The position numbers and the translations under genes were made by a program. Positions 11,342-58,864 of a stretch of 64,000 bases of DNA are shown here, piece after piece. Within the stretch, counting starts at the first letter, position 1, and every line of letters starts with the position of its first letter. The stretch comes from an uncultured Gemmatimonadota bacterium (GTDB lineage: Bacteria; Gemmatimonadota; Gemmatimonadetes; Gemmatimonadales; Gemmatimonadaceae). The DNA lies in the NCBI GenBank assembly GCA_902826615.1, contig CADEFN010000005.1, forward strand, positions 186,001 through 250,000, in the 5' to 3' direction. The notes below the pieces were generated by a model. The model was not told where the DNA came from, searched no databases, and worked only from the letters and a program-made list of their open reading frames with translations.

Positions 11342-13159
11342 ATGTCCATGGTCGAACGGGTTTCGCATGACGTGCTGGTGATTGGCGCCGGTGGTGCCGG
11401 CCTGCGCGCCGCAATTGCGGCAGCGGCGACTGGCGCACGGGTGGGACTGGTCTGCAAGTCCCTGCTTGGCAAGGCACACACGGTGATGGCCGAGGGCGGG
11501 ATGGCCGCGGCGATGGGTCATGTGGACGACCGGGACAACTGGCGTGTGCATTTCGCCGACACGATGCGCGGCGGGCAGTACATGAACAACTGGCGCATGG
11601 CCGAGCTGCATGCGAAAGAGGCACCGGATCGCGTGCGGGAGCTCGAAGCCTGGGGTGCGGTGTTCGATCGCACCGCCGATGGCCGTATCCTGCAACGAAA
11701 CTTTGGTGGCCACCGGTATCCGCGTCTCGCGCACGTGGGCGACCGCACCGGGCTGGAGATGATCCGGACCCTTCAGGATCACGCAATCCATCAGGGCATC
11801 GACGTCCACATGGAAGTGACGGTGGTGCGGCTGCTGATGGACGGCGGTCGTGTGGCAGGTGTGCTGGCCTACGACCGCGAACGTGGCCGTTTCAAGGTGT
11901 TCAGCTGTGGCGCTGTTGTGCTGGCCACGGGCGGTGTTGGCCGGGCCTTCAAGATTACCAGCAACAGCTGGGAGTACACGGCCGATGGGCAGGCGCTTGC
12001 GTACGAGGCCGGGGCCGAGCTGATGGACATGGAATTCGTGCAGTTCCATCCCACGGGAATGGTGTGGCCTCCGAGTGTGAAGGGCATTCTGGTCACCGAG
12101 GGGGTTCGCGGTGAAGGGGGGGTGCTCCGCAACAGTCAGGGCAAGCGCTTCATGTTCGACGACATTCCGGAGAATTACCGGAACCAGACGGCGGACAGCG
12201 AAGAGGAAGGATGGCGCTACACGCAGGGTGACAAGTCGGCGCGTCGCCCACCCGAGTTGCTCACGCGTGATCACGTGGCGCGCTGTATTCAGCGTGAGGT
12301 GCGCGAGGGGCGAGGGAGCCCGCACGGCGGGGTCTACCTTGACATTGCCTGGATCAAGGAGCGCATCCCCAAGGCGCAGGACCATATCAAGAAGAAGCTG
12401 CCGTCGATGTACCACCAGTTCATGCAGCTGGCCAACATCGACATCACGACCACACCCATGGAAGTCGGCCCAACGACGCACTACATCATGGGTGGTATCC
12501 GCGTGGATGGCGATTCGCAGATGTCCACCGTGCCCGGCCTCTTTGCGGCCGGTGAGTGTGCGGCAGGATTGCACGGGGCTAACCGGCTGGGCGGCAACTC
12601 CCTCAGCGACCTGCTGGTGTTCGGCAAACGCGCCGGCGAGTATGCCGCGCGTTTCGCCGCAGAGCATCCCGGCGCCACCGTGTCAAACAGTGAAGTGGAC
12701 GGAGCAGTGGCGGCTGCCCTCAGCCCATTTGAACGCGCGGGTTCCGCCGAGCAACCGTACCGCATTCAGCACGAGTTACAGGATCTGATGCAGGACCTGG
12801 TGGGTATCGTGCGCAAGGAAGAGGAGATGCGCCGAGCCCTCGATGCGCTGCAGGGGCTCAAGGCGCGGGCTCGCGACGTTGGTGTGGCGGGCAACCGGGA
12901 ATACAACCCCGGTTGGCATACGGCACTCGACCTCGCCAACCTGCTCACCATCTCGGAGGCTATTGCCCTCGCCGCCGTGGAGCGGAAGGAAAGTCGTGGC
13001 GGTCACTTCCGCGACGACTACCCGGACAAGGACTCCAACTACGCAAAGTTCAACATCGTGATGCGCAAGGGATCGGGGGGCGAGATGGAGCTGGAGCGCC
13101 GGCCGATTCCTCCGCTCCCGCAGGAGCTGGCGGGGATCATCGAGGAGCAGAAGAGCTGA
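11342..13159 (+). CDS. sdhA: Succinate dehydrogenase/fumarate reductase flavoprotein subunit
   Basis: This 605-residue protein starts with a Rossmann FAD motif (VLVIGAGGAGLRAAIAAA), followed by the KAHTVMAEGGMAAAMG segment that in this family carries the covalent FAD histidine (HTV). Substrate-site sequences include GGHRYPRLAHVGDRTG and the FHPTGM and GANRLGGNSLSDLLVFG regions. The C-terminal domain ends with RESRGGHFRDDYP-type sequence. It catalyses succinate oxidation in the TCA cycle (or the reverse) on the cytoplasmic face. It lies between the membrane anchor and, 85 bases later, the iron-sulfur subunit. Confidence 0.96.
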   Translation: MSMVERVSHDVLVIGAGGAGLRAAIAAAATGARVGLVCKSLLGKAHTVMAEGGMAAAMGHVDDRDNWRVHFADTMRGGQYMNNWRMAELHAKEAPDRVRELEAWGAVFDRTADGRILQRNFGGHRYPRLAHVGDRTGLEMIRTLQDHAIHQGIDVHMEVTVVRLLMDGGRVAGVLAYDRERGRFKVFSCGAVVLATGGVGRAFKITSNSWEYTADGQALAYEAGAELMDMEFVQFHPTGMVWPPSVKGILVTEGVRGEGGVLRNSQGKRFMFDDIPENYRNQTADSEEEGWRYTQGDKSARRPPELLTRDHVARCIQREVREGRGSPHGGVYLDIAWIKERIPKAQDHIKKKLPSMYHQFMQLANIDITTTPMEVGPTTHYIMGGIRVDGDSQMSTVPGLFAAGECAAGLHGANRLGGNSLSDLLVFGKRAGEYAARFAAEHPGATVSNSEVDGAVAAALSPFERAGSAEQPYRIQHELQDLMQDLVGIVRKEEEMRRALDALQGLKARARDVGVAGNREYNPGWHTALDLANLLTISEAIALAAVERKESRGGHFRDDYPDKDSNYAKFNIVMRKGSGGEMELERRPIPPLPQELAGIIEEQKS

Positions 13160-13179
13160 CGGCAGAAGGCAGATGGCAG
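13158..13179 (+). repeat. Copy 1 of a GGCAGA-type dispersed repeat
   Basis: Two imperfect tandem units of the type GGCAGA(A/T) sit at the end of sdhA. The first 19 bases match the reverse complement of 41432-41450 at 18 positions. The intergenic stretch to 13244 holds nothing else recognised. Confidence 0.55.
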
Positions 13180-28943: not shown

Positions 28944-31007
<2,064 letters not shown>

Positions 31008-34842: not shown

Positions 34843-35148
34843 ATGAGCACGTGGCGCGACAAGATCAACGAGATGATGACCGAGCTGCAGCAGGAGCGCG
34901 ACGAACTGCGCGTAAAAATGGCCCTGGGCAAGGCGGAGCTGAAAGACGAGCTGGCCGAGCTGGATGGCAAGCTGGACGAGCTCAAGGGGAAGGCCGCCGC
35001 ATGGGCGGACAAGGCCGACGACCAGCTGGACGATGTGCTTGACGACGCCAAGGAGAAGGCGAGCGGGTGGCTGGGTGAACTCAAGGAGGGGTACCAGAAG
35101 CTCCGCGAGCGGATGACGGGTGACGACGCACCTCCGCCGCCGGCCTGA
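34843..35148 (+). CDS. Small coiled-coil protein, unknown function
   Basis: This 101-residue, highly charged protein has heptad-like repeats of Lys, Glu and Asp (ELKDELAELDGKLDELKGKA), two runs of DD and a Pro-rich tail. The start is ATG 34843 with GGAGA upstream. It resembles apolipoprotein/LEA-type stress proteins in composition only. It is 42 bases after the kinase-like gene and is followed by a terminator. Confidence 0.65.
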   Translation: MSTWRDKINEMMTELQQERDELRVKMALGKAELKDELAELDGKLDELKGKAAAWADKADDQLDDVLDDAKEKASGWLGELKEGYQKLRERMTGDDAPPPPA

Positions 35149-54972: not shown

Positions 54973-55572
54973 ATGCCCAAGCTCGATCGGCTGCACACGG
55001 CGCTCGCCGTGCTCATCACCCTGGGGGTGGGATATCGTGCCTTCGACAACCACCAAAGGGTTGCGGGGAATGAGCAGCCTGCCCTCCGCGCCCAGATCGA
55101 ACGGACCGGGAGAAGCGGAAAGGCGCCGGCTCGTGAGCGCCCTCCCCGCAAGGCGGCAGAAAAGCGCCCGTCCGCATCGACTGAATCAGGGGTTCGCGCC
55201 GAGCAGACGCCCGCCGGAGCCCTTGCACGTGTCACGGTACCGAAACAACAAACGGTGGTGGGTGCGACAGTCGAGCGGGTCGATATGGACCAGGCCTCGG
55301 AGCGTGTGTTGGAGGCGTTGCCCGGAATTGGCCCATCGCTCGCCCGTCGTCTGGCCCGGGACCGGGAGAGCAATGGCCCCTTCGGTTCGCTCGCGGGGCT
55401 GCAGCGCGTGAAAGGGGTCGGTCCGCGTTTGGCGGAGCGCCTTGCGCCCTACGTGACCTTTGGAGGTACGGGGCGTCCCAGCAATGTGATCTCCATCCCG
55501 GAGCCGGCGCACGCCGGAAGCCAGGATGGGGCACGACGTCGCGAGGGGCGGAACAGGCTGCGCTCGCGGTGA
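54973..55572 (+). CDS. ComEA-like helix-hairpin-helix protein
   Basis: This 199-residue protein has an N-terminal membrane anchor (LHTALAVLITLGVGYRAF), a basic low-complexity linker, and two HhH motifs (LPGIGPSLARRLARD and VKGVGPRLAERLAPYV) at residues about 115-165. Such proteins bind DNA without sequence preference, as ComEA does in natural transformation. It sits 50 bases upstream of pilB and in the same direction, which supports a link to pilus-driven DNA uptake. Confidence 0.8.
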   Translation: MPKLDRLHTALAVLITLGVGYRAFDNHQRVAGNEQPALRAQIERTGRSGKAPARERPPRKAAEKRPSASTESGVRAEQTPAGALARVTVPKQQTVVGATVERVDMDQASERVLEALPGIGPSLARRLARDRESNGPFGSLAGLQRVKGVGPRLAERLAPYVTFGGTGRPSNVISIPEPAHAGSQDGARRREGRNRLRSR

Positions 55573-55622
55573 TTCTCGCGCTCTCCTTTCCGTCCTCCTC
55601 GCCCCGCGATCCGTCTACAAGC

Positions 55623-57446
55623 ATGGCAGCGTCTGCGGTAGCAGCACCAGAGAAAGTGGCGGACGCCCTGCTCCGGGACGGTGTCATCACCAAGGAGCAG
55701 TTCGAGCGCGCTCGTCAGGAAGGCAAGCAGAGCAGCACCACGGTGAGTTATGCCCTGGTGAAGCTCGGCATCCTCCCCGAAGTCGAGCTCACGAAGTTCC
55801 TCGCGCGTAACTCGCGCATGCCGGCCGTCGATCTCACCAAATTCGAAGTCGACCCGCGCATCGTCAAACTGATTCCTGCCGAGCTGGCCACCAAGCACCT
55901 CGTGCTGCCGCTCAAGCGGGATGGCCGCACGCTCACGGTGGCCGTGGCGGACCCCACGAACATGGGGATCCTCGAGGACCTCAAGTTCATCACGCGCTAC
56001 GACATTTTCCCCGTCCTCGCCGGGGAATTCACGCTGCGCAACGTCATCGACAAGCAGTACGACCAGGGCGACGTGGGGATGCAGAACCTCCTCGACGAAG
56101 TCACCGGTCTGGATGACATCGAGGTGGTGGAGGACAAGGAAGAGGATGTGTCCGCGGCCGCTCTCGCGGCGCAGGTGGATGACGCACCAGTCGTCAAACT
56201 CATCAATGCCATCCTGACCGACGCCGTCAAACGCGGCGCATCGGACATTCACTTCGAGTGCTTCGAACACGAACTGCGCGTGCGCTACCGCATTGACGGC
56301 GCGTTGCAGGAAGTGATGAAGCCGCCCCTCAAGCTCAAGGCGGCCCTGATCTCGCGCTTCAAGATCATGGCCCAGCTGAACATTGCCGAACGCCGCGTGC
56401 CGCAGGACGGGCGTATCAAACTGAAGATCGGCAACAAGGTCATCGACTACCGTGTCTCGACGCTCCCGACACTGTTCGGCGAGAAGGTCGTACTTCGAAT
56501 TCTCGACAAGGGCAACCTGACCCTCGACCTAGAGAAGTTCGGTATCGAACCGAGCGCCGAAAAGGCGCTCATGGAAGCGATCTCGAATCCGTACGGCATG
56601 GTGCTGGTCACGGGACCCACGGGTTCCGGAAAGACCACCACGCTGTATTCGGCGCTCTCGAAGATCAACAACATCGACGTCAACATCATGACGTCGGAAG
56701 ATCCCGTGGAATACAACCTCTTCGGGATCAATCAGGTGCAGGTCCGTAACGAGATCGGTATGACGTTCGCCGCGGCGCTGAAAGCATTCCTGCGTCAGGA
56801 TCCGAACATCATCATGGTCGGCGAAATTCGAGACCTGGAAACGGGCGGTATCGCCATCAAGGCCGCGCTCACGGGTCACCTGGTGCTCTCGACGCTGCAC
56901 ACCAACGCGGCGCCAGAAACAGTGACGCGTCTCCTGGATATGGGCCTCGAGCCGTTCAATGTCGCCTCGGCACTCAACCTGATTCTCGCACAGCGACTTG
57001 TGCGGCGCGTCTGTCCACGGTGCAAGAAGAAATACACGCCGGACGAAAATGAGCTGGCGGGCGCGAAAGTCTCTGCGGACACGCGGCTCGGCGATCTGCG
57101 CTTTACGGACTCCGCGCTGCAGGATGCCAAGGCGCGTGCCACACCCGAAGCGCTGCCGCATCTGGCCAACCTCTCGGTCGACACCCGCATTGGCGAGCTG
57201 CCGTTTTTCAAGGGCCGTGGCTGCGACGATTGTGCCGGGAGCGGACTCAAGGGTCGTCAAGGTTTGTACGAGGTGATGTCCATGACGGCTGAGCTGCGCA
57301 AGCTGATCCTCATGAACGTGGGCGCCGCCGAGCTCAAGGATGCCGCGATTGGTGAAGGCATGCTGACCCTGCGCATGGACGGCTGGCTCAAGGTGATGAA
57401 GGGTGTCACGACGCTGGAGCAGGTGATCCGGGAGACGTCAGCTTAG
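55623..57446 (+). CDS. pilB: PilB, type IV pilus extension ATPase
   Basis: The start at ATG 55623 gives 607 residues. An N-terminal MshEN-like region (ARQEGKQSSTTVSYALVKLGI) precedes the motor. Walker A is GPTGSGKTTTLYSA, Asp box EDPVEYNLFGINQVQV, His box LSTLHTNAAPETVTRLLDMG, and the tetra-Cys zinc site is CPRCKKKY plus GCDDCAGSG. It powers pilin polymerisation at the inner membrane. The product is typical length. Confidence 0.94.
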   Translation: MAASAVAAPEKVADALLRDGVITKEQFERARQEGKQSSTTVSYALVKLGILPEVELTKFLARNSRMPAVDLTKFEVDPRIVKLIPAELATKHLVLPLKRDGRTLTVAVADPTNMGILEDLKFITRYDIFPVLAGEFTLRNVIDKQYDQGDVGMQNLLDEVTGLDDIEVVEDKEEDVSAAALAAQVDDAPVVKLINAILTDAVKRGASDIHFECFEHELRVRYRIDGALQEVMKPPLKLKAALISRFKIMAQLNIAERRVPQDGRIKLKIGNKVIDYRVSTLPTLFGEKVVLRILDKGNLTLDLEKFGIEPSAEKALMEAISNPYGMVLVTGPTGSGKTTTLYSALSKINNIDVNIMTSEDPVEYNLFGINQVQVRNEIGMTFAAALKAFLRQDPNIIMVGEIRDLETGGIAIKAALTGHLVLSTLHTNAAPETVTRLLDMGLEPFNVASALNLILAQRLVRRVCPRCKKKYTPDENELAGAKVSADTRLGDLRFTDSALQDAKARATPEALPHLANLSVDTRIGELPFFKGRGCDDCAGSGLKGRQGLYEVMSMTAELRKLILMNVGAAELKDAAIGEGMLTLRMDGWLKVMKGVTTLEQVIRETSA

Positions 57447-57453
57447 GGGCGGA

Positions 57454-57512
57454 AGCACGAGTAGCACGAGTAGCACGAGAAGCACGAAGAGCACGAAGAG
57501 CCCGAACACGAG
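57454..57512 (+). repeat. Tandem 9-bp array, AGCACGAGT-type
   Basis: Five units of AGCACGAGT/AGCACGAGA/AGCACGAAG stand head to tail from 57454, followed by a sixth decayed unit AGCCCGAAC and a partial one. Confidence 0.85.
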
Positions 57513-57653
57513 TGTGCTGCTTGTCACAGTCGTGACGCCGTCGTCGATGCGCCCGTCAATAGTCGTCAAACTGAGGCAGTAGCCAGGAGGTTGGGAGTGA
57601 TGCACCGGACATTGAGTGTTAACGCAGCTTGGAGCAGTCGAAGCTCGGATGCC

Positions 57654-57689
57654 CTTCGTGCTTCCCGTGCCTCCCGTGCTCCCCGTGCC
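57654..57689 (-). repeat. Tandem 9-bp array, opposite orientation
   Basis: Four units read on the minus strand as GGCACGGGG, AGCACGGGA, GGCACGGGA and AGCACGAAG, a variant family of the first array. It ends 8 bases before the pilT start. Confidence 0.8.
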
Positions 57690-57697
57690 TCCGCCGT

Positions 57698-58864
57698 ATG
57701 ACTAAACCCAACTCAGCCCCAAACGTCAATCTGCGTGCGCTGCTCGAAGAGATGATCGAGCGCGATGCGTCGGATTTGCATATCACGGCGGGTGAACGCG
57801 CCAAGTTGCGCGTGGACGGCGACATCGTGAATGCGACCAGCGAATACGTGCTGTCGCCCAAGGATACGCTGCAGCTCGCCTACTCCGTCCTCACGGAAAA
57901 CCAGAAGAAGCGCTTCGAGATGGAGGACGAGCTCGACTTCTCGTTCGGCATCCAGAACCTCGCCCGCTTCCGTGGCAACTGCTTCAAGCAGCGTGGCTGC
58001 GTCTCGATGGTCATCCGGCAGATTCCGTTCAACATCCGCACGTTCAGCGATCTCGGGCTGCCTGGTGTGATGGCGCGCATGGCCGAAAAGCCGCGCGGTC
58101 TGGTGCTGGTCACCGGGCCGACGGGTTCGGGCAAGTCCACCACCCTTGCCGCGATGATCGACAAGATCAATCGCGAGCGCAAAGGGCATATCATCACGGT
58201 CGAAGACCCCATCGAGTTCATCCATCGCCATCAGGGTTGCATCGTCAACCAGCGCGAGGTCGGCACCGACACCAAGACCTTTGCCAACGCACTCAAGTAC
58301 GCGTTGCGTGAAGACCCCGACGTCATTCTCGTGGGCGAAATGCGCGACCTGGAGACCATCCAGGCTGCCCTCACGATTGCAGAAACAGGCCACCTCGTCT
58401 TTGCCACGTTGCACACCAACTCGGCGGCCGAGGCGATCAACCGTATCATCGACGTCTTCCCGAGCCATCAGCAGTCGCAGGTGAGAGCGCAGCTGGCCTT
58501 TGTGCTCGAAGGCATCGTCACCCAGACGCTGCTGCCGCGTGCGCGCGGCCGCGGCCGGGTGATGGCGGCCGAGATCCTCGTGATCACCGCGGCCATGCGC
58601 TCGCTCATCCGTGACGACAAGATCCACCAGATCTACTCGCTCATGCAGAGCGGCAAGAAGTACGGCATGCAGACCATGAACGACGCGTTGTACCAGCTGT
58701 ATGTGTCGCGCGAAGTGACCGAGGAGGAGTGCCTCCGCACCTCGGGTGACCCCAACGAGTTCTTGCGCATGATCGGCCGCAGTCCCTCGGACGAAGAGGC
58801 CGATGGCAAAAACGGCAAAGCAGCACCCCAGCGCGCCATGGCGGCCGCCGGGGGTCGACGCTAG
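57698..58864 (+). CDS. pilT: PilT, type IV pilus retraction ATPase
   Basis: This 388-residue hexameric ATPase from ATG 57698 has the PilT N-terminal region (MIERDASDLHITAGERAKLRVDGD), Walker A GPTGSGKSTTLAAM, Asp box VEDPIEFIHRHQGCIVNQREVG, Walker B DPDVILVGEMRDLETI and His box HLVFATLHTNSAAEAINRIID. It powers pilus retraction. A single frame, typical length and the adjacent pilC confirm identity. Confidence 0.95.
   Translation: MTKPNSAPNVNLRALLEEMIERDASDLHITAGERAKLRVDGDIVNATSEYVLSPKDTLQLAYSVLTENQKKRFEMEDELDFSFGIQNLARFRGNCFKQRGCVSMVIRQIPFNIRTFSDLGLPGVMARMAEKPRGLVLVTGPTGSGKSTTLAAMIDKINRERKGHIITVEDPIEFIHRHQGCIVNQREVGTDTKTFANALKYALREDPDVILVGEMRDLETIQAALTIAETGHLVFATLHTNSAAEAINRIIDVFPSHQQSQVRAQLAFVLEGIVTQTLLPRARGRGRVMAAEILVITAAMRSLIRDDKIHQIYSLMQSGKKYGMQTMNDALYQLYVSREVTEEECLRTSGDPNEFLRMIGRSPSDEEADGKNGKAAPQRAMAAAGGRR

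Follow-up and report, generated by a model that had tools for sequence, protein, structure and literature searches.

Inverted tandem arrays between pilB and pilT of a Gemmatimonadaceae-like bacterium are probably one copy of a dispersed array family found behind stop codons

The spacer between pilB and pilT in an uncultured Gemmatimonadota bacterium (genome G000, Gemmatimonadaceae-like, 5.9 Mb in 98 contigs) carries two tandem arrays that face each other, which raises the question of whether they serve these two genes or belong to something more widespread. The window, that is, the whole analysed stretch of 64,000 nucleotides, corresponds to C5:186001-250000. The original prediction described arrays of six and four 9-bp units in opposite orientation, and both were confirmed by TRF and by an inverted-pair search. 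The core, estimated at about 140 bases, measures 144 by unit boundaries, and the proposed spacing of the array end to pilT holds. PilB and PilT score above the curated NCBIfam cut-offs, while the best match of the gene after pilT is PilC, below the cut-off. The locus is organized as follows:

55569-57446, plus strand: pilB, the upstream neighbour, identified as PilB by TIGR02538; start codon uncertain
57444-57446, plus strand: TAG stop codon of pilB, within the terminus consensus TTAGGGGCRGAR common to many copies
57447-57454, plus strand: leader GGGCGGAA, 8 nt from the pilB stop to the left array
57455-57508, plus strand: left array, six 9-bp units by unit boundaries (TRF 57454-57506, period 9, 5.9 copies)
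57509-57652, plus strand: core, 144 bases between the arrays by unit boundaries
57653-57688, minus strand: right array, four inverted 9-bp units by unit boundaries (TRF 57657-57692, period 9, 4.0 copies)
57689-57697, minus strand: inverted leader CTCCGCCGT from the right array to the pilT start
57698-58864, plus strand: pilT, the downstream neighbour, with ATG at 57698-57700; the same start is found in G002

By unit boundaries, 8 nt separate the pilB stop from the left array and 9 nt the right array from the pilT ATG. The best TRF scores of the two arrays, 65 and 65, head the 38 rows obtained for the window, followed by 60 (34932-34982) and 57 (28968-29007). The inverted pair has arms of 46 nt (57448-57493 and 57650-57695) that are 83% complementary, and the spacer-end complementarity of 22 compares with 11 for the runner-up in the window (among spacers of 25 nt or longer, own gene calls). 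With up to two mismatches, GCACGANNNGCACGANNNGCACGA matched the window six times, five of them between pilB and pilT, against a mean of 0.02 and a maximum of 1 in shuffled sequences; a chance origin of the arrays is excluded within the window. A stretch of the core, GTGTGC..TTGTCAC.GTCGTGACG, is recognisable by eye, without a scored alignment, in the same-genus genome G002, and we therefore take the core for older spacer sequence.

The search for the unit elsewhere in the genome, which the original prediction had set as a test, revealed that it recurs widely, with 145 matches to three consecutive GCACGRRRR units in the whole of G000. Reading of the individual loci yielded 85 arrays of the GCACGRGRR unit, dispersed over 54 elements, of which 30 are inverted pairs and 24 are single arrays. 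In several arms the units carry TACG for CACG (C4:352768, C2:397711 and C10:7249; L071, L063 and L081). Since the arrays shade into such degenerate units, all array counts are lower bounds; on a G000 sample, a stricter de novo method calls only 5 of 19 array-bearing spacers inverted pairs. The intervals between paired arrays range from 1 to 144 bp and are unlike each other in sequence. Four-helix-bundle or GxxExxY genes might ride between such arrays. In the one long facing interval in G000, C1:659346-660386 (960 bp), the gene present looks ordinary, so an autonomous element with an internal gene was rejected; the two arrays around it were tallied as singles. In the three-unit search, as in the 298-genome search and for several genomes of the GGCAGAY search described below, the backwards-pattern control reached or exceeded the actual count and is uninformative there, since reversing the pattern does not stop it from matching a tandem array. 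The same control gave 0/0 for G000 in the 99-genome unit search and for the array-rich genomes in the AGGAGTC and GGCTGCGT searches.

A pilT-specific device, as first suggested, is not supported, as arrays are common behind many other genes, including those for ribosomal proteins. The related proposal of a phase-variable repeat that tunes pilT through changes in copy number draws on the tandem arrangement and on unit numbers of 2 to 9 per array across G000. Against it, the units within one array differ among themselves and housekeeping genes, too, are followed by arrays of this family, which makes such tuning hardly credible.

The polarity of the arrays is fixed. Neighbouring arrays within 200 bp of each other are ordered '+-' in 30 cases, '++' in one and '-+' in none. 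Most arrays are, moreover, anchored at a stop codon: a gene stop within -12 to 15 nt lies on the sense side of 55 of the 85 arrays, which read away from it, and on the other side of 6. The remaining 30 have no sense-side stop in this range, and some abut start codons. Among the 56 arrays with a stop within -40 to +10, the distance is exactly 8 nt in 26; in this tally the stop assigned to the right arm of the window, at 24 nt, is spurious. These 56 stops comprise 34 TAG, 15 TGA and 7 TAA, compared with 36 TGA, 21 TAG and 16 TAA in the background of the window plus one ribosomal stretch (TAG versus the rest, p = 3e-4). Single arrays behave alike. Co-directional spacers contain 21 of them, four with non-sense polarity, and 15 of the 17 sense arrays start -6 to 9 nt after the stop. 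Under uniform placement the expectation for each would be 5 to 35%, the other room in these spacers being 27-223 nt (one spacer has a run of N). The two not scored as flush are C7:311464, 115 nt from its stop, and C4:402443, a faulty gene call. As genes were called with our own codon model, the distances carry error.

Of the 54 elements, 35 lie in co-directional, 17 in convergent and 2 in divergent spacers, against a background of 145, 34 and 48, respectively, in a 484-kb sample (convergent versus divergent, p = 2e-4). In a 400-kb sample of G020, some short array was present in 17 of the 36 spacers between convergent genes, 16 of the 132 between co-directional genes and 3 of the 52 between divergent genes; both samples include stretches with previously known matches, and their densities are not unbiased. 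The convergent excess in the two genomes would suit a bidirectional transcription terminator. Contrary to this explanation, terminator-like sites (GC-rich hairpin, short loop, T-run) were absent from 57200-58000, with 0.5 expected from shuffles, and the tuf-S10 operon (genes assigned by NCBIfam) bears 9-bp arrays in four of its spacers in G000: tuf-rpsJ, rpsJ-rplC, rplB-rpsS and rpsN-rpsH. Arrays within this operon argue against strong termination, and we regard a terminator function as very unlikely. An array inside an operon must, in turn, be transcribed.

The original prediction also held that the arrays could form long-range structure in RNA. The RNA of 57440-57710 was indeed predicted to fold with -111.5 kcal/mol (z -3.6), a stability that 0 of 200 shuffles reached, closing the whole spacer end to end as one long stem; no Rfam family matched the window at gathering score. 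Stem formation is likely when one transcript holds both arms. One could imagine that this stem is what selection maintains, as a hairpin joining the pilB stop to the pilT start for stabilisation, attenuation or translational coupling, with the units as building material. Consistent with this idea, the predicted fold closes the spacer end to end in six genomes (G000, G001, G002, G004, G020 and G037) and, to a weak degree, in G026, the arm sequences being different, and the arrangement recurs with other units. At pilB-pilT, the arms of G002 differ from those of G000, G001 and G004 have 7-bp units, G037 has (AGGAGTC)n and G020 has (GGCTGCGT)n. End complementarity at pilB-pilT exceeded all 300 letter shuffles in G000, G001, G020 and G037; it was weak in G002, G026 and G004, where 5, 10 and 16 of the 300 shuffles, respectively, reached it. 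Pairing of spacer ends across genomes scored at most 7 for G000, G037 and G020, versus 22, 29 and 25 for their own ends. For G001 and G004 the cross-genome scores of up to 11 and 10 are near their own (12 and 9), and the own match is therefore not distinctive there.

Several observations speak against such selection. The match between arms is no better within an element than between elements (0.861 versus 0.865 in permutations, p = 0.70; outer-aligned, p = 0.90; 30 pairs), so we do not claim selection on each stem. Moreover, the 24 single arrays among the 54 elements have no detected partner, convergent spacers offer no start codon to couple, and G009 and G015 lack end pairing at pilB-pilT (287 and 298 of 300 shuffles, respectively, reach the observed value). 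Taken as a whole, a selected stem appears rather doubtful. The complementarity test covers 9 of 13 pilT loci, G013, G018, G019 and G034 being omitted because their spacer ends are unsure, and four of the nine pilT starts were set to the last ATG. The G034 spacer (L232:2696-2917) contains a 15-bp repeat in 14.8 copies with an adjoining inverted GTCATCCTGAGC-type repeat.

The presence of arrays differs between species of the same genus. Within 99 genomes of the family, the GCACGRGRR-type unit occurs in four (G000, 74/69 matches; G003, 30/12; G004, 0/4; G030, 0/1), with no matches in G001 and G002. Positions differ as well: in the tuf-S10 operon of G003, a single 9-bp array lies in another spacer, rpsC-rplP, and none of the five sites is shared by G000 and G003. 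The rpsC-rplP spacer of G000 has a 7-bp array of the GGCAGA type, and that of G002 a degenerate array with a 9-bp unit. In the long spacers of this operon the stop positions of G000, G003 and G002 mostly agree, and the sequence behind the stop differs. Arrays were found in 2 of 335 spacers of G002, none of them paired. A flank match in the G002 sample was obtained for 19 of the 54 G000 elements, with both flanks at one place for ten, and the spacer of these ten is longer in G000 in eight cases, as measured between match ends. Flush palindromes as a genus-wide feature were likewise not found in 800 kb of G002: end complementarity of at least 12 occurs in 1.0% of the co-directional (n = 207), 1.8% of the divergent (n = 57) and 2.4% of the convergent spacers (n = 42), and of at least 15 in none (controls, 0 to 0.8%). 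Scattered CACG arrays were matched in 13 of 298 genomes of the phylum, G000 included; at 13 such loci from other genomes our own pattern detected no facing partner, each being a single array. A wider scan of genome contigs gave at least 80 loci among the matches listed, mostly actinobacterial.

Other genera show the same arrangement with unrelated units, which are mostly stop-linked and sometimes located at pilB-pilT. GGCAGAY occurs in 9 of the 99 family genomes, including G000, AGGAGTC in two genomes of one genus, and GGCTGCGT in two, with 85/37 matches in G020 and one in G007. Several unit families coexist in G020: by eye, its array-bearing spacers contain at least seven different units, and 25 of 36 are inverted pairs. 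Stops lie on the sense side of 17 and the other side of none of 21 GGCTGCGT arrays in G020, and of 8 and none, respectively, of 13 AGGAGTC arrays in G037. For other G020 units stop linkage was 4/6 (AGGGCAGG), 4/12 (GGGACTC), 0/6 (CACGGAGGA) and 0/1 (CCGCAGAGGG), with two further units not picked up by the script; stops on the other side did not occur for these units either. All neighbour orders in G020 are '+-' (10, 2, 6 and 1). In the window itself, a short 7-bp GGCAGAN array at 13147-13179 sits directly on the TGA stop of a called gene (11342-13159), as a second stop-linked unit family.

Could the elements be mobile? Palindromic elements of the REP/REPIN or MITE type might be moved by a trans-acting transposase with specificity for the terminus TTAGGGGCRGAR, which adjoins the array in many copies, including copies without a gene stop there. 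The presence of the elements is lineage-specific, and the inverted dimers, with their variable spacers, are reminiscent of the REP dimers described in PMC3733652. Like the REP/BIME/REPIN elements of that account, the G000 elements are dispersed between genes. REPs are, in the same source, short palindromes tied to Y1 transposases, whereas the G000 arms are tandem arrays in a genome with no Y1 match. The Y1 transposase family PF01797 had no match in six array-bearing genomes (G000, G001, G003, G004, G020 and G313; completeness 74% for G003 and 81% for G313). Single matches were obtained in 4 of the 14 genomes searched, namely G037 and G016, which carry arrays, and G015 and G019, in which the units searched are absent. 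A REP-type palindrome of 20-40 bp with a GTAG or CGTC tag was not encountered, the copies read having TTAGGGGCRGAR and 9-bp arrays, and the G000 cores are unlike between copies. Spread by a Y1 transposase is thus not supported, and mobility of this type seems unlikely. The AGGAGTC elements L323, L337 and L342 (G037) and L326 (G313) share a similar core of about 80-90 bp with small palindromes, in contrast to the variable G000 cores. A TA target duplication, suggested by eye at the termini in G000 and G037 but not in G020 (TGAGT), was not adopted.

The closest known kind is represented by the GGGAATC heptamer arrays of Xanthomonas. As described in PMC4692102, 186 (Xcc) and 183 (Xac) dispersed intergenic arrays include 70 and 75 convergent inverted pairs. 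Those behind a gene are on the coding strand, mostly within 0-50 bp of the stop and in some cases overlapping it; those in front of a gene occupy the non-coding strand, and few (8% and 7%) are found between divergent genes. The G000 unit similarly forms dispersed, stop-proximal head-to-tail arrays with frequent convergent inverted pairs, but measures 9 bp instead of 7. The Xanthomonas stop-proximal arrays were studied as quadruplex formers, 56% and 42% having at least four units with intact G tracts (PMC4692102). The four-tract G3N1-7 rule fits 9 of 85 G000 arrays and neither arm in the window, although 78 of 85 have at least one GGG. As, in addition, the units AGGAGTC, GGCTGCGT and GGCAGAY of other genera lack GGG, a quadruplex reading does not seem to be general. 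Whereas 83% of the Xanthomonas repeats keep their gene context in the sister species (PMC4692102), none of the five ribosomal-operon sites is shared within the genus here, and orthologous spacers in Gemmatimonadaceae bear unrelated units. Three heptanucleotides of Calothrix are mentioned in the same paper, which describes few inverted pairs for Nostoc, unlike the G000 arrays. The Beggiatoaceae TAACTGA arrays of PMC4679880 are likewise 7-bp arrays dispersed in spacers, putative ribosomal operons included, but in that account lie mostly just before start codons, with one inverted case in 170 sets. Cyanobacterial heptamers, known as STRR, share with the G000 arrays that they are lineage-specific short tandem repeats dispersed in the genome. 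Judged by title and abstract, none of the papers listed by our searches, which covered few subscription papers, deals with these units or with their replacement at a place that is itself conserved.

The simplest account assumes a family of arrays that builds up behind stop codons in a single direction. We consider it probable that the pilB-pilT arrays are one copy of such a family, which is dispersed and non-coding and is made of short tandem arrays whose polarity is fixed. Each array would begin just behind a gene boundary, at a distance of a few bases, and read away from the gene; the boundary would mostly be a stop codon. Two boundaries facing one spacer would then give an inverted pair and, once transcribed, a long stem closing the spacer. 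Arrays may be copied within the genome and be retained at sites where they harm neither the gene upstream nor the leader of the gene that follows. Their action, if any, would be that of a REP/BIME-like transcribed 3'-end hairpin rather than of a terminator or a pilT switch; such a hairpin might protect or insulate the pilB message at its end while transcription reads through into pilT.

More tentatively, a general process in some Gemmatimonadaceae may place G-rich arrays behind stops with fixed polarity, the unit being replaced by lineage while place and direction stay constant. Since translating ribosomes leave the message at the stop, free nascent RNA, for example in R-loops on the G-rich sense strand, could attract or generate arrays there. 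The stop-proximal arrangement described in Xanthomonas arises here from several unrelated units, some without a GGG run, and orthologous spacers differ in unit. The question thereby shifts from what one sequence binds to what places arrays behind stop codons. At the pilT end of the spacer, an in-frame TTG at 57629 (57629-57700) extends the PilT reading frame through the right array, and annotation could gain 23 false residues.
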